NCBI GenBank assembly: GCA_030272155.1
Contig: CP126203.1
Location: forward strand, 1,426,001 to 1,490,000
DNA: 64,000 bases
Direction: 5' to 3'
From: Tetradesmus obliquus
Lineage: Eukaryota; Chlorophyta; Chlorophyceae; Sphaeropleales; Scenedesmaceae
In this document: piece by piece, positions 1 to 59,901 of the stretch
Position numbering within the stretch: the stretch's first letter is position 1
Layout: each line of letters starts with the position of its first letter
Program-made: the position numbers and the translations under genes
Notes under the pieces: generated by a model
What the model saw: the letters and a program-made list of their open reading frames with translations, nothing else
What the model was told of the DNA's origin: nothing
The model's database searches: none

Positions 1-194
1 GTGCTTGCTGCAGCGACTGGACTGTGCTTGTGGCACAGCTTGTTTTTAAGCTGCTGCTAGTGAGGTTTGCTGCAAACCAGCGGCGCATATGCCACGCACC
101 TGTTTTATTACCACAGCAGCAGGATCTATATTATTGCTCCTGCTTTGTACATCTGCCATTGCCCTGCACCTATATGCGCGTGTCGCAAACTGCA

Positions 195-252
195 GTGCTG
201 CTGCTGCGGAGGCATCTCTACCCAGCAGCCTGCGCGCCACCTTATCAGCTGA
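195..252 (+). repeat. Acceptor-side echo of PrmA exon 311-437
   Basis: A CAG acceptor at 192-194 is followed by a near copy of the first bases of the exon at 311, reading [11 protein letters not shown] in the same frame. The copy then breaks off into unrelated sequence, while the intact exon continues to GDTAEQLSD. Confidence 0.75.
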
Positions 253-310
253 AACCTGCTTGCCTTGCCCCGCGGTGCACCTGTGGCAACTGTGTTTGCT
301 GCACGTGCAG

Positions 311-851
311 CGCTGCTGCCGCGGAGGCGTCTCTTCCCAGCAGCCTGCGTGCCACCTTCTCTGCTGTCTCTGGTGACACTGCGGAGCAGCTGAGCGACTG
401 CTTGCTGGGGCTGGGGGCGCAGTCTGTTGTTGTGCAGGTGGGCCTCCTTGGGTGACAGCCTGTTACAACAATTTGCTGCCTGCTAGGGCTGGGGGCTCTG
501 TCTGAGGGGGTGCAGGCAGGCCTCTTTCCTGGTGACAGTCTGGTTGGCAGTCAAACATGATATTTTTTGCTGCTGGGGCTCCTTGAGTGGCATCCTGATG
601 ACAGACGAAGCAGCTAAGCGACTGCTTGCTGGGCCTGGGGGCGCAGTCTGTTGTGCAGGTGGGCCTCTTTGGGTGGCAGTACCATTCGGTGTTTGCTGAA
701 GGGACCTACAGCAACAGCAGGTTCCTTTGCGGGAAGGCCTGCTTGACTGACAGCCTGAATGACAGACACAGCAGCTGAGTGACTGCTTGCTGGGGCTGGG
801 GGCGCAGCCAGTGGTGGTGCAGGTGGGCCTCCTTGGAGTGATAGCGTACTC

Positions 852-891
<40 letters not shown>

Positions 892-2433
892 CAGCTGCAC
901 TCACACCAGCGGCAACCATAGCAGGCTTGCCTGAAGGCTTGCTTGCTTTCCTGCAGCACTTACTTACCTGCGGCACGGCATGGCCCCACGGATACCCTAC
1001 CGGGCCCTCGGGCACGGTAGGGATGGTAGGAGGCGTGGAGGTGCATGAGGTATCCTCATCGCCACACACGTCCCCTTCCTCAACTTACGCGGGTGTTGAG
1101 TGTGAACACACCACGCGTAGCTCATTCATTTATTCACCTGCGGCACCCCAGGCCTTCAGTTGTTTCCTGCAACGCAGTCGCCTGTGCACCCTGTGGCTCA
1201 TACCATCTAAGATGGTGCCAGGACCCACATGTAACTATCCTCTCCAGCTGTAAACCCCCTCATTCCTCATACTCATGTTGTTGCTGCAGGAGGCGCGGGC
1301 GGAGGGGCAGCCTGAGCAGGAGAAGTTTGGTGCTGAGGCGGGGCTGTGGGACAGCTGCCAGGTGCTGGCTCACTTCCCTCTCGAGGTGAGGATTCCTTTC
1401 TGACGCAGTGGCCTCTGCCAGCGCTGCTAGCACAGCGTAGGTGTTATAGCGTCTCTTGTCCTCAGCCAGCAGTTCATCATGTGTTTCTCTTGGCAACTGT
1501 CAAGTTTGGTGCTGAGGCGGGGCTGTGGGACAGCTGCCAGGTGCTGGCTCACTTCCCGCTTGAGGTAAGAAAGCGGTTTCTTGAACTTGCGTGGTGTTCA
1601 AGCAAAAGATGATGTCATGTACGAGATTGTTCTCTTCACTATGCGCCTTCAATTGGCTTGTGAATGTCTTTCCTAATACATTGTGGAGTGATGCATGGGA
1701 CGTTGAGTGCTGAGGCAGGGCAGTGGGGCAGCTGCCAGGTGCTAGCACACTTCCCGCTTGAGGTGAGCGTTGTGTGAACCAAACCTGCCTTCAGCTATCT
1801 GCTGCCGTCGTTGTCAGTTAACTTGTGTTCCTTATGTGTTTTGCATCCTGCAGTCAGCATCTCGTGGCCATGGGATTGGATTTTTTTTGCAGCGCAGTGG
1901 TGCAGTGCATGTGAATTGTTGGGCGGAGGCAGGGCTGTGCGACAGCTGCCAAGTGCTGGGTCACTTCTCTCTTCAGGTGAGCTGTGTGCTGCAGCTGGCT
2001 GCAGCATGACGTGGAATGAATGGCTGCCGCAGCGCAGGACATCCTGGAGCTGCTTGATTTGCCACTTGGCACTGTTCAATGCACCTCTTCCACGAACTTT
2101 ACCTCCCTCACCGCCTGCATTTTCGCTGTTGGTGTGGTATTCGCTTTGCTGCAGCACAACGTGGACGAAACCGTTGCTGCAGTACAGGACATTCTGGAGC
2201 TGCCGGGGCTGTCATTTGAGCTGGAGGAAGTTGTTGACCAGGAGTGGGTGGAGCAGATCAAAGCCAGCTATGTGCCCGTGCAGGTGAGGGTTTAGTGCGT
2301 TAGACGGTTGTAGTTTAGGTTTTAGGGTGCTGGAGTGGCAGGTGGTGGGTAGGGAGTGGTGGGCCAGGAGTGGGTGGAACAGATCAAGGCCAGCTACGTG
2401 CCCGTGCAGGTGAGGGCTTGACGGTGACAACTA

Positions 2434-2497
<64 letters not shown>

Positions 2498-2573
2498 ACA
2501 ATGCTGAGGGCTTGTACATAGTACCGGAGTGGAGGGAGCCGGCTGACCCGGCTGCCCTGTGCTGCTGCTGAGG

Positions 2574-2638
<65 letters not shown>

Positions 2639-2711
2639 AATAGCGGACCTGTACAAGGTTGCCGCTTATGTCTGAAACACGCATGGTGCCTGCCCACCTG
2701 CCTTTTCCGTG

Positions 2712-2752
<41 letters not shown>

Positions 2753-2814: not shown

Positions 2815-2858
<44 letters not shown>

Positions 2859-5833
2859 CAACTAGTGGAGGACCTGTACACAGTGTTGTGTGTGCCTGAA
2901 ACGCATTGTGCCTGCGTCTCTGCCTTTTCCTGCCTGCTGCTGCTGCTGCTGCTGCAGATAGCTGAGGGCCTGTACATAGTGCCGGAGTGGAGTGAGCCGG
3001 CTGACCCAGCAGCTCTCAACATACGGCTCACACCAGGAGTGGCCTTCGGCACAGGTGAGCAACAAGACTGGCTGTTTGGGCTGTTTAAGCTAGTGTGCAC
3101 TAGGACATGCTTGTGCCCTTTTTCGTGCTGTTGCAGCCTCCTGGCAGGAGACCTGGAGTGTCAGCAAACTACGTCCTTCACTGAATGAGTGCTGGCATAT
3201 GCCACTGGCAGCAAGTCAGGACCTTGTAATGCTGCTGCTGCTCCTGCTGCTGCTGCTGCTGCTATTGTGCAGGCGAGCACCCAACCACCAAGCTGTGCCT
3301 TCGCTACCTCGCGGGACAGGACCTCCAAGGCTGCTCTGTGTGTGACTACGGCACAGGCTCTGGAGTGCTAGCCATCGGTGAGACAAGGTTTTGGCCCTGT
3401 TGAATGCAGCAAATCCACAGATAACACTGTTTATAGTTTTTTTGTGTGCGATCACTGCACAGGCTCTGGTGTGACAGTGTGCTAGCTATTGGGTGAGGCA
3501 ACTGCCTTCTAAAATTTTGCCTGGTCATAGCGTATTGATGTGTCCTGGGTGCTAGTGTGACATAGCTATGCCTACCTATAGGCACATAGCACAAGCTCTG
3601 GCGTGCTAGCCATAGGTGAGGCAAACGGTAACTAGCCATCAAGTCCTGGCTCTGTGTGTGCATGCGTGCTGACTTTGTGTGTGTCATCACAGCACAAGAT
3701 CAGGCGTGCTAGCTATAGTGGGGCAGGCCATTCTGTTATCCAGGCGTTTGCAGCTGCGCTGCTAATGAATGTGGGTGTTGCAGCGGGCACAGAGAGGACC
3801 GACTGACTGTACACAATCATGTCACCAGTTGGCGCCGCCCAGCTGCTGACCACCTGCGTGCCTGCCTGTGTTGCTATGCAGCGGCTCTGCTGATGGAGCT
3901 AGCAGCGCAGTGGGCACAGACATGAACCCGCTAGCAGTGTGTGCATTACCAAAGTGCTGCCTGCCTGCCTGATTGACCACCTGCTGCTGCAGCTGCACTG
4001 CTGATGGGTGCTAGCAGCGCCGTTAGTACAGACATGGACCCACTGGCAATTCGTGCTGCGAGGCCAATGCTGGCCTGAACAAACACTGACCCACTAGCTG
4101 CCTGCCTGCCTGCCTGCCTACTTGCCTGCTGCTGCAGCTGCACTGCTGTTGGGTGCTAGCAGCGCAGTGGGCGGAGACACGGACCCGAAAGCAGTGCGCA
4201 CCTAACCAAGTTGCTGCCTGCCCGCCTGATCGACCACCTGCTGCTGCAGCTGCTCTTTCTATGGGTGCTAGCAGCGCAGTGGGCACAGACCCCGACCCCC
4301 TAGCAGTGCGCGCTGCGGAGGCCAATGCTAGCCTGAATGGAAACTGAACCGCTAGCTGCCCGCCCGCCTGCCCACTTGCCTGCTATTGCAGCTGCTCTTC
4401 GATGGGTGCTAGCAGCGCAGTAGGCACAGACACGGATATGATAGCAGTGCGCACCTAACCAATTCGCTGCCCGCCCGCCTGCCTGCCTACTTGCCTGCTG
4501 CTGCAGCTGCTCTTCTGATGGGTGCCGCCAGCACAGTGGGCACAAATACTGATCCACTGGCAGTGTGCGCATAACTTAACTGCTGCCTGCCTGCCTGCCT
4601 GCCTGATTGACTGCCTGCTGTTGCAGCTGCTCTTTTGATGGGTGCCGCCAGCGCAGTGGGCACAGACACCGACCCGCTTGCAGTGCGTGCTGCGGAGGCC
4701 AATGCTGGCCTGAACGGACACTGAGCCACTAGCTGCCTGCCTGCCTGCCTGCCTACTTGCCTGCTGCTGCAGCTGCTCTTTTGATGGGTGCTAGCAGCGC
4801 AGTGGGCACAGACACTGACCCGCTTGCAGTGCGTGCTGCGGAGGCCAATGCTGGCCTGAACGGCATGCAGGGGCGCTTCTCGGTGGTCAGGTGTGGCGCA
4901 AACTTGGACGACGCTGACCCACTGCTCCAGGTGAGGCCAAAACACTGCTCCAGGTGAGGCCAAAACACTGCTCCAGGTGAGGCCAAAACACTGCTCCAGG
5001 TGAGGCCAAAACACTGCTCCAGGTGAGGCCAAAACACTGCTCCAGGTGAGGCCAAAACACTGCTCCAGGTGAGGCCAAAACACTGCTCCAGGTGAGGCCA
5101 AAACACTGCTCCGGGTGAGGCCAAAACACTGCTCCAGGTGAGGCCAAAACACTGCTCCAGGTGAGGCCAAAACACTGCTCCAGGTGAGGCCAAAACACTG
5201 CTCCGGGTGAGGCCAAAACACTGCTCCAGGTGAGGCCAAAACACTGCTCCAGGTGAGGCCAAAACACTGCTTTTGATTATGTATGTATGTTTGAGCAGCA
5301 GTCAAGCACAGTAAATGTGTTGGTTTCCGAGTATTTGGGTGCAGCGGCACAGACACGAACCCGCTGGCAGTACGCGCTGCCAATGCTGGCCTGAACGGCA
5401 TGCAGGGGAGGTTCTTGGTGGTCAGGTATGGAGCAAACCTGAATGATGACCCCTTGTTGCAGGTGAGACAAGCACTGCTTTTACGTTGCATTGTTCGTGT
5501 GCCACACGAACAACAGTGTGTGGTTGGCAGTGGTCACGTGTGGCGCAAACGCTGATGACGCTGATCCACTGCTGCAGTTGAGACCAGAAACCGTCCGTCT
5601 ACCGCAGCACTTTGCACTAGCCAGGCGCATAGATGAGAGTGTTCCAAAAAGTGTGCAGAAGCCTTGGTCCTGTTCATTATTATGCAGATGTGTTGCACGC
5701 TGTGCCAAACGGTTTGTGGAGTGTGCAGACGCACATCTGTTGTCAGCGTCACAACGATGTCTGTATTCATGTGTGCGTGACACTTGCTGCCTCTGCAGCA
5801 GCTACTGCTCCTGGTACTGCTGGACCTTATAAC

Positions 5834-5882
<49 letters not shown>

Positions 5883-6140
5883 AAAATGCTCCACACAGCT
5901 GCAGGATGGCGCTCCGCAGCTGTTTGATGTGGTGGTTGCAAACATCCTGCGGGGTCCGCTGCTGGAGCTGTGGCTGTGTGATTGACCTTCTGACACTGGA
6001 TGCTGCTGCTGCTGCTGCTGTTTTGGTATACAGCTGGAGCCCAGCCATCCCCGGCTGTTTGACGTGGTTGTTGCCAACATCCTGCGGGGTCCGCTGCTGG
6101 AGCTGCAGCCGCGGCTGTGTGATTGATACTCTCACACTGA

Positions 6141-6178
<38 letters not shown>

Positions 6179-7016
6179 TTTATATACAGCTGGAGCCCAG
6201 CACTCCCCGGCTATTCGACGTGGTTGTTGCTAACATCCTGCGGGGTCCGCTGCTGGAGCTGCAGCCGCGGCTGACTGCCTACTGCAGGCCCGGCGGGCGC
6301 CTGGCCCTCTCAGGCATCCTGGCAGAACAGGTGAGGGTTTCATACATAGATTTGTTTGTGTAGTCCACAATTGTTTAGTGCTGAGTGCCTACTGCAGGCC
6401 TGGCGGGCGCCTGGCTCTTCAGGCATCCTTGCAGAACAGATGAGGGCTCCATACACAGATGAATTTCTATAGTCCACCATTTTGATGTGCTGGCTGGCTA
6501 TTGCAAGCCCGGCGGGCGCCTAGCTCTTTCAGGCATCCTAGCGGAACAGGTGAGGGGCCATCATTGTACAAAGACGCTTTAGCCATTGTGCTGTGATCAG
6601 TGCCGACTGCCTACTGCAGGCCTGGCGGGCGCCTGGCTCTCTCAGGCATCCTGGCGGAACAGGTGCGGGGTGCAACATCTACTCGTCATGTGTGGTGCTG
6701 TGATGAATGCTGGTGAGCTGGCATCCGCTGCTGAGCGCAGGTTATGTCGTCTTGATTGTATCGCTGAATTGTCGTCCATTTCTACAGCCATATGCAAACT
6801 CTCTGTCAACAGCTTGTGCTGAGTTGGGTTGAGCTGCCCAGGGTAATCTCAAGCCACCAGCATCTACGTGGCATTTCAAACTGACAGGTGTGTGTTGTTT
6901 CGTTGATTTGCCTGCAGGCGCCTGATGTGGTAGCTGCCTACAGCCCATACTTTGAAGATTTTCAGGTCAGCACTGAAGGCAGCTGGGCACTTGTCACTGC
7001 GCGCAGAAAGCAGTGA
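311..7016 (+). CDS. prmA: Ribosomal protein L11 methyltransferase, PrmA family (multi-exon, 5' end unclear)
   Basis: S-adenosylmethionine-dependent methyltransferase that in bacteria trimethylates ribosomal protein L11; a nuclear copy probably acts in an organelle. Exons read by eye: 311-437 ([19 protein letters not shown], the usual PrmA N-terminus), 1290-1385, 2155-2283 ([15 protein letters not shown]), 2958-3054 ([12 protein letters not shown], the family hallmark), 3273-3377 ([15 protein letters not shown] motif I), 4773-4930 ([16 protein letters not shown], motif II with acidic Asp), 6190-6330 ([13 protein letters not shown], the NIL motif) and 6918-7016, ending in a TGA at 7014. Phases agree at the junctions checked. 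The first exon and targeting peptide are not identified and may lie before the window. Introns are filled with partial exon copies. Family assignment is firm; exon boundaries are probable. Confidence 0.88.
470..833 (+). repeat. Three donor-side echoes of PrmA exon 311-437
   Basis: Copies at about 472-526, 613-664 and 776-826 repeat the exon end encoding [13 protein letters not shown] and run on into the donor-like GTGGGCCTC. They have different amounts of decay: the first has lost the donor, the third is close to identical. All lie downstream of the intact exon. Confidence 0.8.
1192..1245 (+). repeat. 54-bp intron element, copy 1
   Basis: Matches 30184-30237 at about 52 of 54 positions, in the same orientation. 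Both copies end roughly 40 bases before a splice acceptor. The element contains a 15-base inverted repeat (ACCATCT-A-AGATGGT). No coding sense is apparent. Confidence 0.85.
1502..1976 (+). repeat. Three donor-side echoes of PrmA exon 1290-1385
   Basis: Copies at 1502-1565, 1707-1762 and 1921-1976 repeat the exon end encoding [15 protein letters not shown], each followed by a GT donor (gtaag, gtgagc, gtgagc). Divergence increases with distance from the intact exon. A short acceptor-side echo of the next exon (AAAQDILEL) follows at about 2018-2060. Confidence 0.85.
2363..2411 (+). repeat. Donor-side echo of PrmA exon 2155-2283
   Basis: Repeats the exon end encoding [16 protein letters not shown] together with the donor GTGAGGG. 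It lies 80 bases after the intact exon. Confidence 0.85.
2431..2957 (+). repeat. (CTG)n tracts with acceptor-side echoes of PrmA exon 2958-3054
   Basis: Long CTG runs lie at about 2431-2496, 2578-2638, 2716-2752, 2819-2859 and 2935-2957. Several are followed by a copy of the exon start encoding [10 protein letters not shown] (about 2502-2560 and 2751-2813, with a weaker copy near 2866-2886). The last tract ends in CAG and abuts the intact exon. The CTG run thus stands where the polypyrimidine tract and acceptor should be. Confidence 0.85.
3880..4772 (+). repeat. Seven acceptor-side echoes of PrmA exon 4773-4930
   Basis: Copies begin near 3881, 3991, 4137, 4250, 4392, 4507 and 4627. Each starts after a CAG acceptor preceded by a CTGC-rich tract and encodes a variant of [18 protein letters not shown]. 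They break off at different points: some stop before AVRAAEAN and others reach GLNG. The intact eighth copy continues to the donor at 4931. Confidence 0.9.
4931..5275 (+). repeat. 23-bp minisatellite, 15 units, made of a repeated splice donor
   Basis: The unit is GTGAGG followed by CCAAAACACTGCTCCAG, repeated every 23 bases from 4931 to 5253. Variation is almost limited to CCAG/CCGG. The last nine bases of the unit (CTGCTCCAG) are the end of the PrmA exon and the next six are its donor, so each unit recreates the exon-intron junction. The array begins exactly at the donor. Confidence 0.95.
5338..5582 (+). repeat. Two longer donor-side echoes of PrmA exon 4773-4930
   Basis: The copy at 5338-5463 repeats the 3' half of the exon (GTDTNPLAV through the LLQ end) and has a GTGAGA donor. 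The copy at about 5521-5580 repeats [16 protein letters not shown] but has TTGAGA in place of the donor. Confidence 0.85.
5890..6135 (+). repeat. Two acceptor-side echoes of PrmA exon 6190-6330
   Basis: Copies near 5905-5985 and 6030-6120 encode [16 protein letters not shown] and then diverge into unrelated sequence (WLCD*). CTG runs separate them, as in front of the intact exon. Confidence 0.85.
6387..6661 (+). repeat. Three donor-side echoes of PrmA exon 6190-6330
   Basis: Copies at about 6387-6439, 6490-6549 and 6605-6661 repeat the exon end encoding [17 protein letters not shown]. They are followed by ATGAGG (dead donor), GTGAGG and GTGCGG respectively. Confidence 0.88.
6789..6813 (-). 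repeat. Dispersed TGTTGACAGAG repeat, copy 1
   Basis: On the minus strand this reads TGTTGACAGAGAGTTTGCAT. Near copies occur at 25616-25640 (-), 56939-56961 (-), 20236-20268 (+) and 50259-50292 (+). Confidence 0.75.
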
Positions 7017-8284: not shown

Positions 8285-9792
8285 GGGGCAGGGGCAGCAG
8301 CTGGTCAACATCATGGAAGACTTTCCTATTGCTAGCTATGCTGCTGACTGTGCACTTGGCAGCAGCCTCAGCTGTGACAGCACAACCAGCAGCAGCCAGA
8401 TCAGCGGCAGCAGCAGCAGCAGGCACTCCAGGGCTTCCGCCAGCTGCATGGCACAGAGTTGGCCACGGCATTGTGCAGGCAGATGCAGCTGCAGAGCACG
8501 CTGTGCTCAACAGGATGCAGCCGGGTGAGGGCAGGCTGCCATCACAGGATGCAGCAGCAACAGCAGCAGCGACGGCGGCAGATGCTGGGAACACCTTGAC
8601 AGCAATTGCAGCACAGCCAGCAGACCACAGGTGGGGCCAGCTCAGCCTAATAGGCTACTAGCCTGATAGTATCAGCGTGTTTTGCCATGCACTCACACAC
8701 ATGATGTGCTGCAGCCATGGCACAACCATGGACCATGCACGCATGCCGTGCATCACTACACAGCACAGAGTGGACAGCCTGTGTATGCACCGCTGAGCAA
8801 AGGATGCGCTGCTTTTGTGCATTTGACCTTTTGCTCTGCCCTTTAGTCATGAACACCAGCTATAGCAGCAGCAACACCAGCAGCACTGCCAGCAGCAACT
8901 GTTCGAAGCAGAAGTAACAATATGGAAGATGTTCCATCGTCAATACAACTGTCGTGCTGTTGCAGCATGCAAGCGCAAATAGATGCCGCTTTTACAGCGC
9001 TAAAAATTGCACAATCCATTCTGGCCACCTTGCTAAAGATCTTGACAGTGCTTGATGTGTGCTTTCCCATGCTGCTGTTACCCCTGTTAAGCAGGCGCTC
9101 ACTGCTGCAGTTTGACCCTGGGTTCCCCTGGCCCACAGCAGACATGAGGCCGTTTGCAAGCCAGTGCAACAAAACATGACATGACATGACAATCATCGCT
9201 GCGTGCTTCTACATGCTGCTGCTGATGCTGCTGCTGCTGCTGCTGCCGCCCATTTTCAGGATGCGCTCGCTGCTGCAGTTTGACCCTGGGTTCCCCTGGC
9301 CCACAGCTGACATGCGGCCCGTTGCCAGCCAATACAACAAGACAGTACATGACAATCATCGCTGCATGCTTCTCCATGCTGCTGTTGTCCTATTTCTGCA
9401 GGCGCTCGCTGCTGCAATTGGACCCAGGCTTTCCATGGCCCACAGCAGACATGAGGCCCGTTGCAAGCCAATGCAACAAGACCGGCAACAGCACCATAGA
9501 GCTGTTCTATGACTACAACTGGCCAGCAAACTCAGCAGGGCCTTACTGCTTCAGGATATGGACCAATGCAAGCATCAGCGGCGGTGCTTTGGGGGAGATT
9601 ACAGCCCCACTAAATGGACAGACGGATGCATCTGCGTCATTTGTGCAGCTGACAGCAATGGGGTTTGAAGTCGGTGAGTGAGCACAGTCAGCGCAGAATT
9701 TGCGAGGTAGTGTGATGCCTGTTTGAATCAAGCCAGCAAGCAGAACGCTGCCGCGGCAGGGGCCCTGATGGTGTGCACCATGCTGCAACGTT

Positions 9793-35691: not shown

Positions 35692-35724
35692 TAACTGTTA
35701 CATGCCATGTTACGTGACATTCAG

Positions 35725-35829
35725 GCTGTGCACACCGCGTGGCAGGTGACCTGGGCATAAAGCCTGGCTGGCCAGCAGTTGACAAGGCGCACGCTGGCCT
35801 GCTGAACTACGTGCGCGACAGGTCATAGT
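35725..35829 (+). repeat. Echo of the CRTISO 3' end, beyond the stop codon
   Basis: Repeats [20 protein letters not shown] and a second TAG at 35827, with a decayed start. It lies in the 3' untranslated region. Confidence 0.9.
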
Positions 35830-37290
35830 AACACACGAGTGAAGTTATCTAGCGGTAGGGACTGGGCGCCCTCTTCATTCTGGGATGTTGCTGGAGCTGT
35901 TGTGTGTCCTGGCTGCTGCGCAGCAGCTGCTGCTGCTGCCGCAGCAGCAGCTGGGAAATGGAGCTGAGGAGCTGTGGCATGCCAGGGCAGCTGGTGCTGC
36001 AGCTGGGAAATGGAGCTGAGGAGCTGTGCCAAGGCTTGAATGTGTTTGAACTCAATACGTGATCACTGGCTGCAGCGCATCCTCTTTTTGTTGCAGCTCC
36101 ATTGGGGTGTATTCATGTCATGCATGCCATTCCACATGGCCGCCAGCATTGTCGGGCTGCTGTGCGGGTACACAGCAATGCTTGTAGTGCTTCCGCCACC
36201 TGCAGCGAATCAATTAGTAGTTTTGTGCACTGGGTGCCCTCTTAATTGTGCGTCACATGTGCACCTGCAAGGCATGTGGAAGCCAGCGGTGCTGTTTCCC
36301 TGCCATCGGTTGTAACTCTTTATACAGCACAAGCTGTGCATGGTCTGAAATGTGGAGATGGGGGCTTCAAGATCTCTAGAAAGGCCATAAATGTGACGTT
36401 ATGACAGTCAGTACAGCTAGGAATGACAACGCCAGGTGTGACGCGCAGCAATTGCTGCTGTCGCGGCACAGCCTTGTGCGCAGACACGTGTGCCATATGA
36501 TGACAGTGGACATGGTTAACGTAGTTATACGTGAGTGACCATATAAGGATGTAAATGCCACAAGTAATCACATTTGCAAGCAAAGCGCCACAGATCACAC
36601 TGCCGCAATGCATTGTCCTGCACATTAGATCTCTACATGCTGCCATACAGGATCATGCCGCCAAAATGCTGCCGGGCTTTCGACAAAAGGCGCAATACAT
36701 GATGCGCACTTAAGGAGTCGCGGCGTCAACAGGGCATTGGACATGCTGCAAAGTGGCAGCAGTAGCTACCGCCTGCATGTGCAGGTTGTGACAGCCTACT
36801 GCATACCAAGTACACATAGCTGTGTGAGCAACCATAGCAGCTGTGTGAAGTGCTGGGTAACCTCACAGTCAGCAGCTGTCTCCGCAGATCATCAGCACAG
36901 TAAATAATATTCAACACTGGCCCAGCTGCATGCATCGTGCCAGTAGCCTCGAACCTCTGTACTTGCAGGAACACCTCACACAAGCTTTACGCACAACACA
37001 ACTCTCAAGCAGCCTGGCTGCTGCTGCGGCTGAGGCTCAGCATACCAAACCACGGCAGCTCTTATTCAGAGCCGCCTCACCACACAGACCAGCGCCATGA
37101 TCTGCTGTAATAGTCCTGCAAAGGCGTGTCAGCAAATATACTCATACACACACATGCGCGCCCTGGCGCTGCCTTTCAAGCACACTGTACACTGATTCAA
37201 ATGTTTATTGATACCATACAGCCCCCCAGAACTTACAACAAGCTGCTGCAGCAGTGCTGCTCCCTCCACCATGCTGGCAGGTGCACAGCA
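35830..37290. other. Intergenic stretch
   Basis: No supportable gene. 35975-36035 holds a direct repeat of about 40 bases (CTGGGAAATGGAGCTGAGGA twice). A short minus-strand frame near 37127-37075 could be a last exon of the hypothetical gene to the right. Confidence 0.4.
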
Positions 37291-47547: not shown

Positions 47548-50230
47548 ATGAAAGTGCTCTCTGAGCACTGCGGCAACAGGCCCTTGGTACTGCTGGTTGT
47601 TCTGCTCAGCTCTGCTGTGGTCTTGCTTTTGTTGCCCTATAGAAGTATCATCGCGGATCGAGTATCAGGCATAACGATCAAGGCGCGATTCAAGCGGTCT
47701 TTGCCATGGTCAGCTGACAACAACACCCTGGACCAGCCAGCCACTGGTGCTGCAGCTACAGGCGGAAGCAGCTCCAAAGTACACCAGGAGCAGCTGCAGC
47801 TGGAGTTCGATTGCAGCACCAAAGAGTTGGCCAGAGACACTTCCTGCTCCCTAGCAGATGCCAGCAAGTATTTTGTGTGCAACAGGCGCTATCTCCGCAC
47901 GGGTGCGTTTGTTGCAGGCAGCAGCGCTTGGCACTCGTACGGCAAATGTGGCCCCAAGCCTGGCATCAAACCTGGAGCCTGCCTCTTCAAACAGCAGCAG
48001 CAAGAGCAACCGAGCAATGCCAGCGGAGCAGCAATCACTGCCACAGCCAACAGCTCTGCTGGCAGCAGCCTAGGCAGGCTCCTGCAGGCTCCGCAACAGC
48101 AGCAGCAGCAACAACAGAAGCAGCAGCAACAGCAGAAGCAGCAGCAGCAGCAGAAGCAGCAGGACGAAACACAGTACATCGTCGTGCTGGGAGACTCCCA
48201 AGGCATGCACTACACAGAAGGTCTAGTGCGTGGCTTGCAGGCAGCTGGCGCCAGCTGCAACATGCAGAAGCGGGAAAATGGCGCAGCCTACTTTGGGGAT
48301 CCTGCAGGAATTGCATACAGGCAGCAGGACTGCAGCGGCTGTGCAAGTTCGCTCACGCGCTGTGTACATCCAGACAAACAGGTGAGCCACATTTCGGAAC
48401 TTACACCAGTAACCTCACCCGTGGGGGAGCCGATGACGCACCCGAGGACTGTCTGTTGAGCAGAGAAGGCTAAGCAGTTGCACACATGGGCTTGCAAGCA
48501 GATGCGCCTGCTGCACGATGCACATGTGTCTGTTGCAGAGTGACGTGGATGGCAAGGCATTGATTTGCAAGGTTTTGGCTTATCACAGTGTTTCGTGGCT
48601 TTCCTGTAGGTTGCTGTTGATGTGGAATACCTGTGCATGGAGTTCGTGAACGACCTTAGCAGATCAAAGAATACACACATCCTGCTGCTGTTTCTTCTGC
48701 AGGTTGCTGTGGATGTGGAGTATCTGCGCATGGAGTTTATCCTAGACTTTGAAGTGACCGAAAAGAAGCGCATCCACTGGGACAAAAACTGCAAGGAGGA
48801 TGCGTCAGCACTGCCGCCAACAGGAGCACCCTGCAAGTGGGCATGGACAACACAGCAGTTCTACCTTGAAAGGTGCGAGGTGCATCACTGATCGAGTTAA
48901 ATGTCATACATTAAGCCAGGGAAGTGTTCAGTTTGTGATCTGCATGCCTTCTCCCGCCGTCAGTGACACCCTGCAAGTGGGCTTGGACAACATAGCAGTT
49001 CTAACATGAAAGGTGACGTTCCTGCAACCATGCAGCTCTCCTGTCAGCTGTCCTGCAAGTGCTTTGTAGCGTTATCCTGCAGGTTGCATTAGTATGCTAT
49101 GACTGTTGTATCAGCGGGCTGATGCCACATCGCAACTGGTTGGCAGCTAAGCTGAAGTTGGCGGCGGCATCAGGTGATTTTGAACCCTTTGAATGCTTGC
49201 GCACCCAGCCTGCACCCTGCGCGTCAACAGCTTTGCACATTTTGGCTAGCAGCTAAGCAGCGCTCCTCCAACACCCAACAACCTGACCAACTGCAGCTGG
49301 CTACACTGCTGCAGGTACCTTGCGGCTCGGCCGCCCAGCCAACTGCATGTGTTTCAAAACGCACACGACTGTGCCCGGCGCAGCAGGGCCGACTATACGC
49401 GAGACTTTTCATGGTTCATATCGCTGCTGAACAGCACACTTGGGCAGAGTTTGAGGTGGGCGGCAAGGCTGCGTGGCAGGAATGCACGTAACATGGTATG
49501 TTATTGATATCTAACATGATACTTGGAACGCATCATTTGTGCATGCGACGGACGACCGACAGCGGCAGCGCAGCTTCCAGTGCTGCTGCGTACTGCAGCA
49601 GAGGCCTTAAATCAATGTCAAGTCAAGTCGAACGAGTTGTTGTTGCTGTCTGCTGCTCCGCCTGCCTGCCCAAATCAGCACTGAAATCTATATGTGGGAA
49701 GCAACAGCCACCAACCCAGACAAGCAGCCTGGCATATGGTAAGCATGCAGCTGGCACAATGCTGTCACAGCCTCCACAGTGGAGGCATCACAGCATGCAC
49801 TGGTTGAGGCTAGCCCGGGCATCCAGTGCTGCATGCTGTATTCAGCAATCATGTGCATGTTACTGCCTCATCTGGCATGCGCTGAGTAGCAGGATACGAT
49901 ACTCACCTGCCTCCTCTCGTTGCAGTGTTCAAGCATGCCTTCTGGGCTGCTGCTTGCAGGAAGAACATTACGTCTGCTGACTGCATCACATTTATGAACA
50001 ACGCGACGAAAGCAGCGATCTACCCTATGGTGGCCCAGACAGTGCGGCACATGCAAGCTGGCACTTACAACAGCAGGAGCAGTGCGGCATGGCATGCAAC
50101 ATTCGATATGTTCACACCAACTTCGGAGCGGTTGGATCTGAATGGAGATGGCGTGCATTTTGTGCACACCTGGAATGACATTGTGGGCAGTCAGCTGCTG
50201 CTTGCAGGATACTGTGCAGACAAGCTGTGA
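47548..50230 (+). CDS. Type II membrane protein with SGNH/GDSL-like domain
   Basis: Exon 1 (47548-48381) starts with a signal anchor (PLVLLVVLLSSAVVLLLLPY). Cys-rich sequence follows, then a poly-Gln/Lys-Gln linker, then YIVVLGDSQGMHYTEGL, a GDS block I as in SGNH hydrolases and plant TBL-type O-acetyltransferases. Exon 48703-48872 reads VAVDVEYLRMEFILDFEV then CKWAWTTQQFY. The last exon (49926-50230) ends with DLNGDGVHFVHTWNDIVGSQLLLAGYC, fitting the Asp-x-x-His block V. Together these suggest a Golgi enzyme acting on glycans, which is inference. Exons between 48873 and 49925 (for example around 49085-49160) are not resolved. Confidence 0.65.
48609..48662 (+). repeat. Acceptor-side echo of the exon at 48703
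   Basis: Encodes VAVDVEYLCMEFVNDL after a TGTAG acceptor and then diverges. A donor-side echo of the same exon (PCKWAWTT with stops) lies at about 48965-49012. Confidence 0.85.
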
Positions 50231-50922: not shown

Positions 50923-53900
50923 ATGCAGCTGCAAGCGACGCACGCTCGTTTAGGGTCTTGCAACAGGCCGGTTGACCATTTGACCAGGCAGCGGCTGGTG
51001 GTGCGCAGCAGTGCTGTCAGCACAAGCATCAAGCAGCCCTGCTCAGTGAACCTTGAGAACCTGGGCAGAGCAGAAGGCCAGACCTTTCCTCTCAACCTCT
51101 ACGGTGGCAAGAAGCCGTCGTTTGTCGGCAAAGTCGTTTCTATCGAGAGGCTGGGTGGCAGGGACAAGGAGAGGGATGTGAGCCACATCGTCATTGACAC
51201 TGGTGAGTATGCTGCTGCAGCTGCAACACCACAACTCCTGCTGCTGCTGCCGCCGCTGCTGCTGCTGCTGCTGCTGCTGCTGTGCATGCAAAGATGGCAT
51301 AAAAGGCTTCTTCTTCTTGCACTCTACAGGACTCAACATCAGCAGGCTTGCAACATTCGATTGTACACACCTAGCTTAGCCACGAAGGCTGTTGACGCCT
51401 TTTTTGCTCCATTTTTCCTGCTGCGCGCAGGCGGCGTGCCGTTTGTTGAGGGCCAGTCGTTCGGTGTGCAGCCTCCAGTGAGTGTGCGCCAGCAGAGCAG
51501 CTGGGCAGTACACTTGCTTGTGTGTGTGCTGTTTCTGTGCTTCTGTGAGTTGTCAGCCTGATGGACAGCCTACTCAGCATGGAATGCAGCAGTGGTGTGT
51601 GCAGCTGGTGAATGACCATGCCTCCAGTGTGCAGCCGCCAGTGAGTTTGAGCCAGCAGAGCAGCTGGGCAGCAAGCCAATATGTGTGGTTCAAGTCGGAA
51701 AGACAGCCTGCTCAGCATGACGCAGCAGCCGTCTTGTGATGATCATGAACTGCATGCCTCTGCTATGGTCCGGCAGCGGCCGGCCTGGCAGGTGTCATCA
51801 CCAGGAATTGCAGACTGGACTTGTAAGCAGGTGTATCAGCTGTCACCAAACCAGCCAGCACGCGACTGGGCCTGCTGCAGGGCACCAAGCTCAACAGCAG
51901 GCATATGCTGTCACTGAAGCATTTGGCACAACCACACCAAACTGAGTAGCTGGCATTCAACTGTTTGTACGTGTGCTTGATGCTCCTGCAGGGCACCAAG
52001 CTCAACAGCAGGGGCGTGGAGGTGCCGCAGCACGTGCGGCTGCACTCTATGGCGTCCTACGAGGACTCAATGAATGACGTGACACCTAACTGGATTTCTG
52101 GCACCAAACTGCATGCACCTGCACCTCCTGCTGCAAAAATGTAAGGTCAACAGACGGAGGACAGAGGAGTTCGACAGTTTCTGCAATGACGCCAAGCCGA
52201 CGAGCTGTCTTTTGTCTGTGTTTTGCATTGCTGCATGCGCATGCAGGGTACCAAGCTCAACAGCAGGGGTGTGGAGGTGCCGCAGCATGTGCGGCTCTAC
52301 TCGATTGCGTCTTCGCGCTACGGAGACAGCGGCGATGGCAAGACCTGCACACTGTGCGTGGTGCGCGTCATCTACCCAGGTAAGGCGCAGGTTTGTTTGG
52401 TTAGGCAGTTTTGGCAGGTGTGATGCATGTCACAGCCACCAGTCTATTTGCTGCTAGGAGTCAGATACCACAAGGTGCACGCTGTGCATGATCTACCCAG
52501 GTGGGCACATGTGTTGTCTTGTTTGGCAATCGCTGCTGCAGTGGCAGGTGTGATATGGCACAACCAACAGTGTGATTGCTTCGGGAGTGCAAGTTGCGTT
52601 CTGTGCGTGGTGCGCGTCATCTACCCAGGTGGGCGCAGGTTTGTTGTGTTGATGACTATACTGCTGCAGTGGCAGGTGTGATGCGTGCACAGCTAACAGT
52701 GTGATTGCTGTTGGGAGCGCAAGTTGCAGGCGTGGAGGCGGTGCATGGCCTATGCAGCAACCTCCTGTGCGACTGCATGACTCACTTGTTCTGCAGCTCA
52801 ACCTAACTGTGGGTTTTTTGGTGTGTTGCTGCTGCAGACCCAGCAACCGGGGAGACGGTGCATGGCCTGTGTAGCAACTACCTGTGCGACTGCAAGCCTG
52901 GTGATGAGTTGGTGATGAGCGGGCCTGCAGGCACTGCGCTGCTGCTGAATGACAACCCCTGGAACAAGCGCATTGTGTGCGTGTCCACAGGTGAGAGTTC
53001 ACTTCTGCTTGCAGGAGACGCGTCTGGAACTTGCAGGAAACCTCCTGCGCCGTGCATGACACCTCACGCTTGGTATAGGACACCCTTGCGTGACGGTGTG
53101 AAATGTAGCTCTCGCAAAACAACTGGTAAAACAACAGGCCCTTACAAAACACAGCCTGGTGATGAGCTGGTGATGAGTGGGCCAGCAGGCACTGCGCTTT
53201 GCTAATTGACAACCCCTGGAACAAGCGCATTGTGTGCGTGTCCACAGGTGAGAGTTCACTCCTGCTTGCAGGAGACGCGTCTGGAACTTGCAGGAAACCT
53301 CCTGGCCCGTGCATGACACCTCACGCTTGGTATAGGACACCCTTGCATGACGGTGTGAAATCTAGTTCTCGCAAAACAACTGGTAAAACAACAGGCCCTT
53401 ACAAAACACAGCCTGGTGATGAGCTGGTGATGAGTGGGCCAGCAGGCACTGCGCTTTGCTAATTGACAACCCCTGGAACAAGCGCATTGTGTGCGTGTCA
53501 ACAGGTGGGCCGCTTGCAGGAAACGCAACTGGTGCTTGCAGGATAAACATTTGATGCTTGCAGGACACCGCATGCCGGCTGCACGGCACTGTCTTGCAAC
53601 GGTACATGCTCTCCTGCAAGACTGCGCATATCACCCGCCAATATATCAATATGAATCATCTGTTGGTTGCAGGAACCGGCATTGCTCCCTTCCGCCCCCT
53701 GGCGGCGCATTGTCATGCTGTCGGGCCCTCCACAAAACATATCGATAATAAAAACAGCCTATTGATTTTTAATCGTGTGGCTGCAGGAATCGACATCACA
53801 CCCTTCCGCTCTTGTTGTTCTAGGCCTTGCACTAAGACTGCTGACCTGATACTGACCTACAAACGCAAACCTGTGGCTGCAGGGACCGGCATCGCTCCCT

Positions 53901-55305
53901 TCCGCTCCTTCTGGCGGCGCATCTTCTTTGACGGCATCGACGGCCAGGCCCCGCAGCCCTTCTCGGACAGTGCCTTGTTCTGGCTACTGTCCGGCTTTGC
54001 CAACACAGACAGGTGCGGCTGTGCTACATTGCTGTTGACAGCGAGGTTCAGGTCAGTTGCATGCAAGCAGGCTAGTAGTAAATTGACAGGTATCATTGTT
54101 CCTAGTCACCCATGTTGTTGTTTGTTCTGCTGCTGCCGCTGCTGCTGCAGTGTGCTGTATGGCGATGAGCTGAAGGCAGCGCTTGAGGCCAACCCCAAGC
54201 ACATGCGCCTGGACATCGCGCTCAGCCTGGAGCAGCAGAACGGGCAGGGGGGTCCGGAGTATGTGCAGGTGCGGTGCAAAATAAAGTAGAACAAAAGAAA
54301 AGGATACCACTGACAGTACTAAGCATGTGCAGAGGGGTCAAAGTTTGTGGAATGGGGGCACTATCATGCTGTGCTGGATGTCGGGTGCATCGTGTATGAC
54401 GAGATTCGTTTGTCAAATAATGCATCTGCCCTCAAGTGTGCTCTTTGCTTAGCGAGTAGGGTGCCCAGTGGGGAATTGCAGCTGTTGCCCCAGCATTTGA
54501 GTGTTGAACATCGGAGATTTGGCTGCTTTGCTTGCAGGACCGCATTCACGAGCACGCGCAGGAGTTCCTGGACCTGATGGCCAGTGATGACGCCATCTGT
54601 CACTTTCAGACCCCTGATTCCCAAACCCTGACCCCAAAACCCCATATTTGTTTGAACTTTGCTGCTTGCAGGACCGCATTCACGAGCACGCGCAGGAGTT
54701 CCTGGACCTCATGGCGAGTGATGATGCCATCTTCTACTTCTGCGGGCTCAAGCGCATGTACAGCAGTGTGCTGGAGATGCTGGAGGTGGGTTGTGTTACA
54801 TTGTGTGTTACTTATGTTATATGTTGTTGCATTGTGTTGCAGTGCGGGCTGAAGCGCATGTACAGCAGCGAGCCGGAGATGCTGGAGGTGGGTGTTGGTA
54901 CACAGCAATGTTAATGTTGTTACTTTATGTTATGTAACATTGCAGGCTGAAGTGCATGTACAGCAGCGTGCTGGAGTGCTGGACGTGGGTGCTGTTACGA
55001 CGCATGGTACTGTGCTACATTGTGCTGCTTTGGTGTTGAGTCACAATGTGTGTTACTGCTGCAACATCATAGTTGCCACCAATGGTGCATCACATTCCAC
55101 TGCAGGTGCAGCTGTTTGCTGAATTGTGTGGATGAGACAGATGACAACCATATGACTGTTTGTTGCTGCTCTTACACTGCTCATCGTTGCTGCTGCTGCT
55201 GCTGCTGCCATGCAGACAATGGGCCGTGAGCACCGCGGCATGGACGTGCCTGCACTCATTGCGCAGCTGAAGAAGAGCCACCGCTGGCACGTGGAGACTG
55301 CTTAA
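50923..55305 (+). CDS. PETH: Ferredoxin-NADP+ reductase, plastid
   Basis: FAD enzyme passing electrons from ferredoxin to NADP+ at the thylakoid. Exons: 50923-51202 (transit peptide, then [19 protein letters not shown]), 51431-51477 ([14 protein letters not shown]), 52246-52379 ([16 protein letters not shown]-binding RxYS), 52838-52990 ([16 protein letters not shown], then GPAGTALLL), 53883-54012 ([17 protein letters not shown] site), 54151-54268 ([15 protein letters not shown]), 54672-54785 ([19 protein letters not shown]) and 55216-55305. Phases agree at all junctions checked. The protein ends HRWHVETA, whereas plant-type FNRs end in a Tyr that stacks on the flavin. The expected CxG of the NADP domain is present (YFCGLK). 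Every intron holds echoes. Confidence 0.94.
51629..51677 (+). repeat. Donor-side echo of FNR exon 51431-51477
   Basis: Repeats GVQPP-coding sequence with GTGAGT and the following 30 bases of intron (GCCAGCAGAGCAGCTGGGCA) 151 bases downstream of the original. Confidence 0.9.
51880..52080 (+). repeat. Two acceptor-side echoes of FNR exon 52246-52379
   Basis: A short copy at 51880-51905 encodes GTKLNSRH. A longer copy at 51990-52070 encodes [22 protein letters not shown] and then diverges. Donor-side echoes of the same exon lie at 52465-52500 and 52585-52629 ([14 protein letters not shown]). Confidence 0.9.
52895..53512 (+). repeat. 257-bp tandem repeat carrying the end of FNR exon 52838-52990
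   Basis: The block [16 protein letters not shown] through RIVCVSTG plus donor and about 165 bases of intron recurs at 53155 and 53412, exactly 257 bases apart. These two copies share a frameshift (GCTTTGCTAATT) absent from the original, so the second round copied an already mutated unit. Confidence 0.9.
53672..53815 (+). repeat. Two acceptor-side echoes of FNR exon 53883-54012
   Basis: Copies from 53671 ([16 protein letters not shown]) and 53788 ([10 protein letters not shown]) follow GGTTGCAG and GGCTGCAG acceptors. The real exon reads [13 protein letters not shown]. Confidence 0.88.
54538..54600 (+). repeat. Acceptor-side echo of FNR exon 54672-54785
   Basis: Encodes [20 protein letters not shown] and then breaks off. 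Donor-side echoes of the same exon follow it at 54842-54888 and 54944-54988 (GLKRMYSS). Confidence 0.92.
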
Positions 55306-55707: not shown

Positions 55708-55709
55708 CC

Positions 55710-57050: not shown

Positions 57051-57086
57051 CGTCGGAAATTTGTGAGGTGTTGAATCAATGAGGTT
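57051..57086 (+). repeat. Left terminal inverted repeat
   Basis: Pairs with 59326-59361, differing only at positions 10, 11 and 13. Confidence 0.9.
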
Positions 57087-59325
57087 GAATCAACAGGGGT
57101 GTCAATCATGGTTGAATCAACCAAGGTTTCGCCTCAACCCAGGTTGAGTCAATCCGGTTGATTGGTCGATTCCGCTTGAAACCTACATCATCGGGTTGAA
57201 TCGACACTTGCACATTCAACCACGCTTGAGTCGACGCAGTTGAAAGAGCATGTCCGGTTGAAGACCACATCAGACCCAGGAACAGCCCCTGAATGCAGCC
57301 ACTGCTGTCGCAAGCGGAATATCAACTTGCAAAACGTTTGCTTGGTTGTGTCCAGACGTGTGTCTGCTTACCAAATGAGGTGCAACCTGTCACAACAAGT
57401 GACAGAAGTCAAACTGCCTGTCGATCGCTTTGAGCCGAGCACACGTCCGTTGCCCAGTCAATAGTTTCTTGTTGCATTTATATTTGCTTTTGAAGCACGT
57501 ATGGGAGTCTGCAGCTGTTTGCGGCCTCCCAAAGGCTGCACACCGTTCGCGGCCTGTCTATGCTCCATCCGCAAGCCTGGCAGCAAAGATCAATATGTTG
57601 ACATCGATCATATCAATACCCAGGACCAACATATGAAGCAGCATCAACCTTGAGGACGGGCTGCTGTAGGTGCTGCCAGACCAGCTGCCCTGCACTTCGA
57701 CTGCACCAGCACCTGCGATGAAGGCCTCGTGAATGAATTGGGAAAATAATCGACGATTATATACCCTGGTTTGGTCGGTGGATCAGGTGAACACCGTCAG
57801 CTGCAGCCAGACCACAGCTGAGCAGTGCTGCAGCTGCAGCAGCAACTCCAGCAGACAGCAACGGGAGTGGCAGCAACCTGACTCGACATTCACAGCTTCA
57901 ACGTCATAGGCTGTGTCATTGTCAGCGATGGTCGATGCCCTACAGGCCTCGCCCTGCTGCCAACACCCACATGTAGCCAACAGTTGCAGAGTAGTGTGCG
58001 ATGCAATGAACACTGTTGGTGTGCATGCACCCTCCGGCCTGTTTGCTGACCCACCCATGTGTGTCACGCCAGTGCAGGTGTACCTCGAATGTGTTTGTGT
58101 CTGTTGCTGTTGGAAAGGCACTGCAGCCGCTTGACATGAGCTGACTGCCAGTTGAGTGATGCTGGGACGGCGCCCTACCTGCCGCTGGTCATGCTGGTCA
58201 ACGGCAAGCCGTGCAGCAGGACGCTGTCAGCATTTGTCATGTGGCACTTTTGGGGAGCAAGGTGGGTTTGATTGCAAGTGCTTGTTACAACCTTTTGGGT
58301 GCCACTGCAGTGGTTGTTCATCAATGCAAGGCATGTTGTGCCATGCGCTAGTTCCGTGTGCTTCCATACGCCAATGTTGAGCAACGACATGCTCCGCGTT
58401 TTTGACTGTCAGTCAACACATGCAGGGCATCGCCGTGATTGGACCTTCCTTGTATCAACGGTGCTGACCAAAACCTGCCGAGGCGTTCACAGTTGCTGTT
58501 TATCAGTGTACCAGTGTGACGTCATATGGCACTAACACATTCTGCATGCTGCTGCCGTTTGCCTGCTGTACAGCTCCGGCTGCGTGCGACAACAAGGGCT
58601 ACAGACCCCAGAGTGTGGACTGCGCTGCCAGTGGAATCGAATGTTGGGGGAGGAGAGGCTGCTCAGGCACAGATGGGAGGGGTGGTGTGGTGGCAAGACA
58701 GAATGACATCACGTGAGGATGGAGGGGCAGGATGGTGTAGGCTGTGATTGCAGCTTTTGGCTGCTGCTACAGGTGTGGCAAGCGTTGCTGCTGTGGCGCA
58801 TATGTGTTGTAGTGGGGCCAGTGTCACCATCAGTGTTGTCCTTTGATGTATCAGCTGGCTGCTGGTGGTTTGCCAGTCAGAGTGCTACTGTGGCTTGGTG
58901 AGCCAGCACTGGGTTACTAGCAACAGGCCAGATTAAGCAGTCATCATGGCTCTTGGTTCTCAGATGTCACCAACACCTTGCTTGGGTGCTGCCAACGCCT
59001 GCAAGTAGCATTCCAGCAGTAATGAGTGTGTGTGTTGTTTCAACGCCGTTGATGTAACCGGATGGCATTGAAACAATCCAGTGGAGTTCCGGTCAACCGG
59101 AGTGTATTCAACGCAGTTGAAGCGTCGGAAGCATCAACCATGATCGATTGAACGCGGTTAAATAACATTTCAACCGATGATTAAACCGTGGTTGATTCGA
59201 TCGACTGGTTGATTTAACGAGGTCGAATCAACCGGCCCGGTTGACGTCAACCACGGTTGAAAAGCGGTGCACCATCAACCTGACCCAGTACTGCGTCTAA
59301 TCAACCATGTTGCTTTCAACCAGAG

Positions 59326-59361
59326 AACCTCATTGATTCAACACCTCAGACTTTTCCGACG
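59326..59361 (-). repeat. Right terminal inverted repeat
   Basis: Reverse complement of the left end at 33 of 36 bases. Confidence 0.9.
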
Positions 59362-59379
59362 ACAAGCCTCCTAATCAGG

Positions 59380-59901
59380 CACTGCTGACAGCGCATCCCT
59401 CGCTGCAGCCCTCTGCTGCTGATGCTGCAGGCGAGCCGTCACCCTGATCAGGCGGCTGCTTACAGCACTGCAGCCTGCTACTGCAATGTAGCAGTACAGC
59501 GCTGCTGTTGCTGTTGGCTGTGCCTCCTCCTGCGCTTCAACCCACTGCTCACCGCGCATCCTTCACTGCAGCCGTCTGCTGCTGCTGCTGATGATGTTGC
59601 GGTTGCTGCTGCAGACAAGCCGCCCCCTAATCGAGCACTACCTGCTGAGCTGCTCACAGCGCATCCTTCACTGCAGCCACGGCAGCCTCAGCAGCAGCGC
59701 CCTCACCCTCCGCCGTCTCGCTAGCCTGCTTGTCATCATCCCCACCTGCTGCTGCTCGTTCTGCTGTGGTTGCTGCTGCTGCAGCTGCAGAGCCGCCTGC
59801 CAGGCCTGACAGAGCACCAGCCACCCTACTGCAAATGCCTGCAGTGAGGCTGGACACAGCCTTGGCTTCCTTGGCCTCTACGCGGCATCTGCTGCTGCTG
59901 C
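59380..59901 (-). repeat. Echoes of the GYF-gene 3' end beyond its stop codon
   Basis: 59656-59901 repeats about 80 terminal codons (KAVSSLTAGICSRVAGALSG through AVAAVKDAL and a stop). Shorter, more decayed copies lie at about 59545-59655 and 59385-59440. In transcription order they follow the intact end. Confidence 0.9.

Follow-up and report, generated by a model that had tools for sequence, protein, structure and literature searches.

Truncated exon copies flanking intact exons in Tetradesmus obliquus as possible scars of exon-break repair

Tandem duplication as an outcome of failed repair has been described for Caenorhabditis elegans, where, after a failure to anneal in synthesis-dependent strand annealing, polymerase-theta joining leaves the copied stretch duplicated in tandem, with sizes of about 100 bp and more (Kamp et al., PMC8654963). 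Further systems to compare are duplicated alternative exons of the Dscam type, intron gain by duplication of AGGT segments and introner-like elements. Here, truncated exon copies, termed exon echoes, are described, which flank intact exons in a stretch of 64,000 nucleotides of the T. obliquus genome (assembly GCA_030272155.1, contig CP126203.1, forward-strand positions 1,426,001 to 1,490,000; in the following, the window) and in further loci sampled from the same genome. For T. obliquus, a G + C content of 57% and a mean intron length of 462 bp, the longest among the five algae tabulated, are given in PMC5966456. Among the matches listed for open-licence PMC papers, no title or abstract opening concerned partial exon copies on a genome-wide scale.

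The echoes resemble the C. elegans helq-1 duplications, which are direct duplications of a repair-synthesis copy with sizes starting at about 100 bp. The worm case differs in that it concerns mutants, a sister or homologue template and a median size of about 1 kb (PMC8654963), whereas in the alga the distances cluster at 105-150 bp, the genome is not known as that of a mutant, and the intron taken along in copying often bears no relation to the local one. With Dscam-type exons the echoes share the location of exon copies in neighbouring introns, but they are cut short, show polarity, are in decay and in most cases have no second splice site, and an open frame with splice sites on both sides was not found. 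Intron gain by AGGT-segment duplication likewise starts from a short stretch duplicated in tandem where an exon ends or across that boundary; in contrast, an existing intron is lengthened here and the exon stays intact, with neither a new intron position nor splicing within the copies inferred. The two copies were not seen to have splice sites at corresponding inner positions, and in 51 of 92 pairs the homology gives out close to the splice site that was already there. Introner-like elements also bring dense new intron sequence into an alga; unlike them, the tested spacers between the copies are unique and form no dispersed family, and sequence repeated across the genome was not the rule among them (eight gave self matches only, one of seven held a dispersed repeat).

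The genome comprises 104.7 Mb in 17 contigs, and the window is part of contig 13. For comparison, 20 loci of 10 kb each (200,000 bases) were sampled, and window and sample together represent 264 kb of the 104.7 Mb. The self-comparison was carried out after masking of simple repeats, and copies less than 2 kb apart were counted as local pairs. Exons were called with our own unsupervised hidden Markov model (HMM) gene finder, trained on these 264 kb from sequence alone. After the removal of 40 overlapping-array pairs, and then of duplicates, low-complexity pairs and pairs shorter than 30 bp, 176 of 243 pairs were retained, of which 125 are anchored in a predicted exon and 51 are unanchored. Some echoes were themselves called as exons (31 of the 92 polar echoes described below).

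In the window, 127 direct local pairs and no inverted pair were detected, covering 20.4% of the bases. The sample loci contained 116 direct and 8 inverted pairs on 15,430 of 200,000 bases (7.7%), with a coverage per locus between 0 and 26% and at least one direct pair in 17 of the 20 loci. The resulting total of 243 direct versus 8 inverted pairs, together with the close spacing, rules out chance and dispersed insertion. Among the 125 exon-anchored pairs, 54 are downstream copies with the exon 3′ end and the donor side and 38 are upstream copies with the exon 5′ end and the acceptor side, whereas only 3 show the opposite polarity (p 7e-24); the remainder lies within the exon (24) or spans a whole exon (6). 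The 3 opposite pairs are a 23-bp minisatellite, a pair anchored in an echo miscalled as an exon, and L026:822-963, and for echoes not themselves called as exons the ratio is 61 to 0. The pattern thus corresponds to that of failed-repair joining, namely direct local duplication with one intact original (243:8; 92:3).

An earlier note on the window, made from its letters, had counted over 60 copies around roughly 30 exons in almost every multi-exon gene, always with this polarity. The existence of the echoes was confirmed, with abundant direct repeats and truncated copies flanking exons on both strands and with the same polarity in window and sample. The window alone contains 26 downstream, 24 upstream and 2 opposite pairs (42 polar pairs on the plus strand, 8 on the minus strand), corresponding to 47 distinct echo copies; the predicted exons that they flank number 32. 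At least three of the latter (1466-1564, 30099-30206, 34356-34406) are miscalled echoes, which leaves about 29 real exons. The copy number of the note is somewhat higher than the 47 obtained at thresholds that leave out overlapping arrays. The polarity applies to 92 of 95 pairs rather than to all, and "almost every" gene is an overstatement, as no polar pair was found between 35.9 and 48.6 kb of the window, where a TP_methylase (tetrapyrrole methylase) gene is located by Pfam, nor in 7 of the 20 sample loci. The sample yielded 40 distinct echo copies, and its 42 polar pairs in 200 kb versus 50 in the 64 kb of the window amount to about one quarter of the density. The window is therefore rich for this genome; the high duplication rate considered in the note is supported, a genome-wide occurrence at this density is not.

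For the FNR gene, in parts, and for the CtpA gene, the exons taken as intact are backed by proteins of known structure. Two solved FNR chains, which match the FNR gene of the window, continue without interruption where the query has its echo stretches near 52.0 and 52.9-53.8 kb, and lack these stretches. Furthermore, the genome encodes a CtpA-gene protein with full identity over almost the entire alignment to the solved D1 protease chain 1fc7, which we take to be the D1 protease of Scenedesmus (Tetradesmus) obliquus, and an upstream echo of this gene (86%, 51 bp) is absent from the solved protein. As a separate observation, a 105-bp copy of the inner part of a predicted exon (L041:836-940 and 1253-1357, 98% identical) sits 417 bp upstream of its exon and shows no simple fit to the polarity rule.

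The copies follow a narrow period. In the 57 of 91 polar pairs that are less than 200 bp apart, the distance from copy to copy is 133 ± 26 bp, clustering at 105-150 bp. Copies have a mean length of 69 and spacers of 64, and the two lengths compensate each other (r -0.62; none of 5,000 permutations was as tight), which fits a unit-like duplication better than the insertion of filler; a filler or target-site-duplication model was rejected on these grounds. A stretch of 105-150 bp, either duplicated or copied as a tract, is the natural unit. Among the periods of the arrays reported by Tandem Repeats Finder are 109-128, 146-156 and 254-257 bp.

In total, 10 different spacers were compared with the genome. 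A joined search with eight of them returned self matches only (all 7 candidates scored). In an earlier set of seven, five of which are shared with the eight, one spacer held a dispersed repeat, which took most of the candidate places (40 of 529 candidates scored). Copying of the spacers from nearby was also tried as an explanation and rejected, with 41 pairs with unrelated introns compared with 1.2 kb on each side on both strands. Direct matches with z >4 were obtained for 13 left and 11 right spacers, mostly longer than 100 bp and holding or adjoining further echoes, and two shorter spacers (75 and 94 bp) matched inverted sequence nearby with z 4.6 and 5.0; no source was found for the others.

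The introns next to the copies were compared by aligning up to 40 bp of intron flank per pair (n = 91), with 484 introns as control. The flanks are in the random range in 51 pairs, intermediate in 26 and clearly alike in 14, although the exon parts are about 90% identical. Where the exon parts reach 90% identity or more (44 pairs), intron similarity is absent in 26 (z <3), weak in 4 and strong in 14. In 51 of 92 pairs the homology extends no further than 11 bp from the splice site, with 30 bp or more of intron still remaining in the unit. Nearly all copies inspected carry a splice consensus of their own, and the introns behind it differ. In one example (L026:128-176 versus 252-300), 49 of 49 bases are identical with no likeness on either side. 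A duplicated unit of exon end and intron should match in both halves, and unlike introns are hence unexpected under plain duplication and decay; an intron part as alike as the rest of the unit was found in 14 of 91 pairs and not overall.

The substitutions between exon and echo indicate the history of the copies. Differences at codon positions 1, 2 and 3 number 59, 44 and 167 in the class with unrelated introns, 21, 25 and 75 in the intermediate class and 24, 11 and 36 in the class with matching introns, while, judged by the non-coding spectrum, the three positions should be almost equally mutable. The echoes contain 97 nonsynonymous changes and 3 stops (3.9 expected), and 13 of the 51 pairs are gapped, in 11 cases by a length that three does not divide; the echoes thus decay without clear constraint. 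In the same order of classes, synonymous versus nonsynonymous changes are 137/97, 56/47 and 31/29 against an expectation of about 0.8, a ratio that alone does not separate the classes. A joint fit over the 48 echoes of the unrelated class gave a third-position intercept of 0.10-0.14 at zero echo decay (twice the log-likelihood difference, 2dlnL, 32 at a fixed neutral slope of 1.68), whereas the intercept of the 14 matching echoes is 0.02 (2dlnL 0.6, slope fixed). Correspondingly, all differences are at third positions in 10 of 44 unrelated pairs with at least two differences (2.8 expected, p 1e-4) and in 1 of 13 matching pairs (0.96 expected). Fourteen of the 48 unrelated-class echoes, picked for zero change at first and second positions, have 0 changes in 424 such positions and 33 in 214 third positions. 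A divergence at third positions already at birth is thereby established statistically, and the most likely explanation for the unrelated class is that the copies diverged under protein constraint, probably as protein-coding exons, before they were joined. This divergence separates a diverged template from decay and from gene conversion. The differences of the unrelated class are evenly spread along the copy, with no mosaic; in matching-intron and non-coding pairs, clustered mismatches were noted (Fisher p 0.0006 and 0.006).

We propose, with a probability of roughly 45%, that the echoes are scars of exon-break repair in which sequence was copied from a differing version of the gene and then end-joined. 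A double-strand break would fall within an exon, and one broken end would invade a homologous gene copy, presumably an allele or homeolog, and be extended by about 100-150 nt through the exon, past the splice site and into the intron. Where the intron of the template differs from the local one, the new tail could not anneal to the other broken end, and the unannealed ends would be joined directly. The product would be an undamaged exon whose splice site works and whose intron flank is new; behind or in front of it would lie what remains of the broken exon, still with the old splice site and the old intron. A template with the same intron would give a plain tandem duplication. Such repair from a diverged template would account for the polarity and the narrow period, and also for similarity that ends abruptly at the splice site and for spacers without relation. 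As a copied tail that reaches into a differing intron has no partner, failure is expected exactly at exon edges, which would explain why echoes with unrelated introns outnumber plain ones by 51 to 14. Shorter tracts would duplicate sequence within the exon and be selected against, so that the surviving echoes reach the splice site.

The proposal would extend the published tandem-duplication mechanism (PMC8654963). Polymerase-theta-like matches, which speak for presence only, were found at C4:2.769-2.779 Mb and C9:2.091-2.102 Mb, each combining helicase-type (HTH_61/POLQ_helical) and DNA_pol_A matches side by side on the same strand; these are probably two polymerase-theta genes, with one of the POLQ_helical matches below the curated cut-off. 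A third, helicase-only (HELQ-like) locus was not found at E 0.001, and exon-wise searches may miss one.

Gene versions with like exons and unlike introns do occur in this genome. The LHC paralogs L037 and L039 (C14:4.10 and 4.13 Mb) have exons that are 98-100% identical, with 6 differences in the 212 third positions of the two exons, out of four, that were counted, while their intron 1 cannot be aligned (z -0.3) and intron 2 is barely above shuffled sequence (z 4.3, 63% over 118 columns). L037 and L038 differ at 25 of 209 third positions, with intron z values of 0, 0 and 5.3, and L038 and L039 have values of 7.6, 6.5 and 2.8; the LHC pairs other than L037/L039 range from 0 to 7.6. In the 40-bp-end test, introns 1 and 2 score no higher than random ones, whether L037 is compared with L038 or with L039. 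A paralog cluster on C6 was also considered for the calibration of intron decay and discarded as too diverged.

Several points weigh against this repair from a differing gene version. No donor version was found in the assembly, and the donor would have to be another haplotype, strain or lost homeolog; for window bases 1-1500, no paralog beyond repeats and the region's own echoes appeared among the 40 of 892 candidates scored, and the same holds for exon 9402-9677 in the assembly. A third-position divergence of 10-14% together with wholly unrelated introns is unusual. Intron 3 of L037 and L039 aligns well (z 64, 77%), and the LHC calibration may not be typical, as these genes are presumably highly expressed, so that codon choice or conversion may hold synonymous sites back. 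With the slope left free, the intercept of the unrelated class is only moderately significant (2dlnL 6.1), and the matching class then gives an intercept of 0.086 and a slope of 0.8 without a gain in likelihood, so that intercept and slope are not separable there. The intermediate class (25 echoes) has an intercept of 0.10-0.12 (2dlnL 15.2 with the slope fixed, 0.4 with it free), and all differences are at third positions in only 2 of its 24 pairs (1.8 expected). Pairs within one gene are not independent, and the gene models are our own predictions from sequence. Finally, 34 of 91 pairs are at least 200 bp and up to 591 bp apart, several of them spanning a nearer echo, and the unrelated-class pair 15174/15428 is part of a 254-bp repeat with a spacer that matches nearby sequence.

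The earlier note had attributed the echoes to tandem duplication across a single exon-intron boundary. Direct local copies, the one intact exon that is kept, a polarity that follows from the geometry and the compensating lengths all agree with tandem duplication as such; the plain copying of one stretch as the general cause does not agree with the 51 of 91 unlike intron flanks next to exon parts of about 90% identity. As an alternative to the proposed repair, plain duplication on one chromosome followed by neutral decay would explain the polarity, the 14 pairs with matching introns, the arrays at periods of 109-128 or 254-257 bp and the missing third-position excess of the matching class. However, the echoes differ by only about 6% at positions 1 and 2, so that under this model the introns should still align, and it accounts neither for the third-position intercept nor for homology that breaks off close to the splice site. 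We regard it as unlikely as a general explanation.

Gene conversion, either between exon and echo or from spliced transcripts, could have kept the exon parts of old tandem duplications alike while the introns drifted. The median identity of the exon parts, which is similar across the three intron classes (0.90, 0.88 and 0.88) whether or not the introns match, is in line with this, as are the LHC paralogs with their alike exons and less alike introns and the location of the edges at splice sites. Conversion nevertheless predicts no third-position difference at birth, contrary to the fit, and the evenly spread differences form no mosaic, though conversion of whole copies would leave none either. 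Since repeats about 130 bp apart should presumably be deleted more often than converted, we consider this explanation improbable.

An assembly artefact, in which two haplotypes of a heterozygous strain were written in succession at exon edges, would produce the same polarity, unrelated introns and third-position differences, and the 14 of 48 echoes without a difference at positions 1 and 2 would fit. It is quite improbable in view of changes at these positions in the other 34 echoes, the stops and frameshifting gaps, substitutions that far exceed the gaps, up to three echoes per exon and echo splice sites that are weaker than real ones (donors p 0.009, acceptors p 6e-5). The weaker sites are mostly intact, a score above -5 being retained by 45 of 53 donors and 35 of 38 acceptors of the echoes, which bears out the supply of decoy-like splice sites considered in the earlier note. 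At the truncated edge there is no clear excess of splice sites, acceptor scores above 4 being found in 0.38 of 53 edges versus 0.26 of controls and donor scores above 4 in 0.05 of 38 versus 0.13. Donor-like sites (score 2) are even less frequent at the truncated edges of upstream echoes (0.24 of 38 versus 0.44 of controls), as if cryptic exons were selected against. That the echoes are alternative or regulatory exons under selection, as their mostly intact splice sites and the synonymous excess might suggest, is very improbable, since the truncated edges show no clear splice-site excess, frameshifts and stops occur and the polarity would remain unexplained; the splice-site, frame and stop tests, all on sequence, gave no sign of echo use.

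Pfam assigned genes for PrmA, a sugar transporter (Sugar_tr) and IF-3 (IF3_N) to the window, in addition to the TP_methylase gene. The predicted protein of the region earlier named TSP1 matches Pherophorin (PF12499) just above the cut-off, while CRTISO, SGNH, GYF and the membrane-protein gene are names from the earlier note that are kept as labels. All echoes in the following are on the plus strand unless stated otherwise. In the PrmA region, exon 311-437 has an upstream echo at 191-251 (89% identical, intron flanks unrelated), for which all 7 coding differences are at third positions, and three downstream echoes at 476-524, 609-679 and 770-836 (80%, 91% and 93%). The exon at 1290-1385, called by the HMM finder with the donor GTGAGG and taken as intact, is followed by echoes at 1502-1566, 1707-1767 and 1926-1981 (97%, 89% and 88%), each with its own donor and then an unrelated intron. 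Exon 2155-2283 is flanked by an upstream echo at 1998-2053 (79%) and a downstream echo at 2351-2416 (89%), exon 2958-3054 is preceded by two echoes behind CTG tracts at 2476-2549 and 2731-2804 (92% and 97%), and exon 3273-3377 is followed by one at 3589-3624 (89%). A tandem-copy array with a spacing of about 110-146 bp occupies 3877-4863 in a PrmA intron, with neither strand nor exon frame assigned. In the 3′ part of PrmA, echoes around exons 5905-5977 and 6190-6330 are located at 5850-5970, 6001-6117, 6054-6154 and 6605-6669.

The window also contains other repeats. A dispersed repeat of about 115-157 bp at 980-1136 in a PrmA intron, a short interspersed or introner-like element, has about 39 further copies among 40 candidates scored, with 84-97% identity on many contigs, and many copies share the right edge. 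A second one of about 54-67 bp (more than 30 copies at 91-97%) sits in a PrmA intron (1192-1245) and in a CRTISO echo spacer (30184-30237). The 23-bp minisatellite at 4920-5271 consists of 15 units with 98% matches and has the donor-like CAGGTGAG in each unit. CTG/CAG-type trinucleotide tracts are frequent across the window, and the learned acceptor model shows a CTG-like rhythm.

In the Pherophorin-matching gene, two upstream echoes of exon 9402-9677 are located at 9060-9172 and 9238-9343. The sugar transporter has echoes on the minus strand at 14997-15028, 15428-15466, 16257-16346, 17021-17131, 18138-18255 and 18454-18545, with matching introns in 4 of the 6, and the membrane-protein gene, also on the minus strand, has a downstream echo of exon 22987-23118 at 22848-22917 (84%). 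In the IF-3 gene, exon 25966-26061 is flanked by an upstream echo at 25782-25821 and a downstream echo at 26145-26221, and exon 26427-26551 is followed by one at 26673-26736 (87%).

Around CRTISO exon 30275-30435, upstream echoes at 29971-30025 and 30088-30151 (86% and 95%) and downstream echoes at 30536-30633 and 30691-30742 (93% and 94%) were found. Further along the gene, a downstream echo of exon 31324-31397 at 31470-31513 (95%) has an unrelated intron, and exon 32076-32270 has an upstream echo at 31590-31688 (91%). An array of upstream echoes of exon 33435-33713 at 33164-33394 has a period of 115-124 bp, and an upstream echo of exon 33984-34059 lies at 33863-33916. At 34338-34766, Tandem Repeats Finder detected a 119-bp array with 3.6 copies of the start of exon 34711-34821, and the same exon has a downstream echo at 34918-34965 (86%). 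Exon 35518-35684 is flanked by echoes at 35387-35465 (upstream) and 35724-35832 (downstream, 90%), the latter repeat including the stop codon, as read by eye. The SGNH gene carries an upstream echo of exon 48703-48836 at 48604-48644. FNR echoes are located at 51980-52056, 52601-52645, 53664-53710, 54529-54598 and 54941-54998, and a 257-bp array at 52895-53507. On the minus strand, a downstream echo of GYF exon 59906-60224 at 59649-59883 (90%) was left out of the intron test, as its unit contains only 22 bp of intron.

If exon-break repair from a differing gene version is indeed the source of the echoes, they would show how introns can lengthen and be replaced without harm to the exons, would explain the large supply of decoy splice sites, would make past heterozygosity and the choice of repair template readable from one genome, and would make the failed-repair mechanism of worm mutants visible at genome scale. 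For annotation they are a warning, as our own gene finder took 31 of 92 polar echoes for exons. A further-reaching view, which we hold tentatively and with some doubt, is that the echoes are a fossil record of repair between versions that shared exons and not introns. The intron difference itself would make the repair fail, each scar would carry a piece of the other version's intron, and thousands of such scars of past heterozygosity or hybrid ancestry, preserved in a haploid assembly, would have inflated the introns of T. obliquus.

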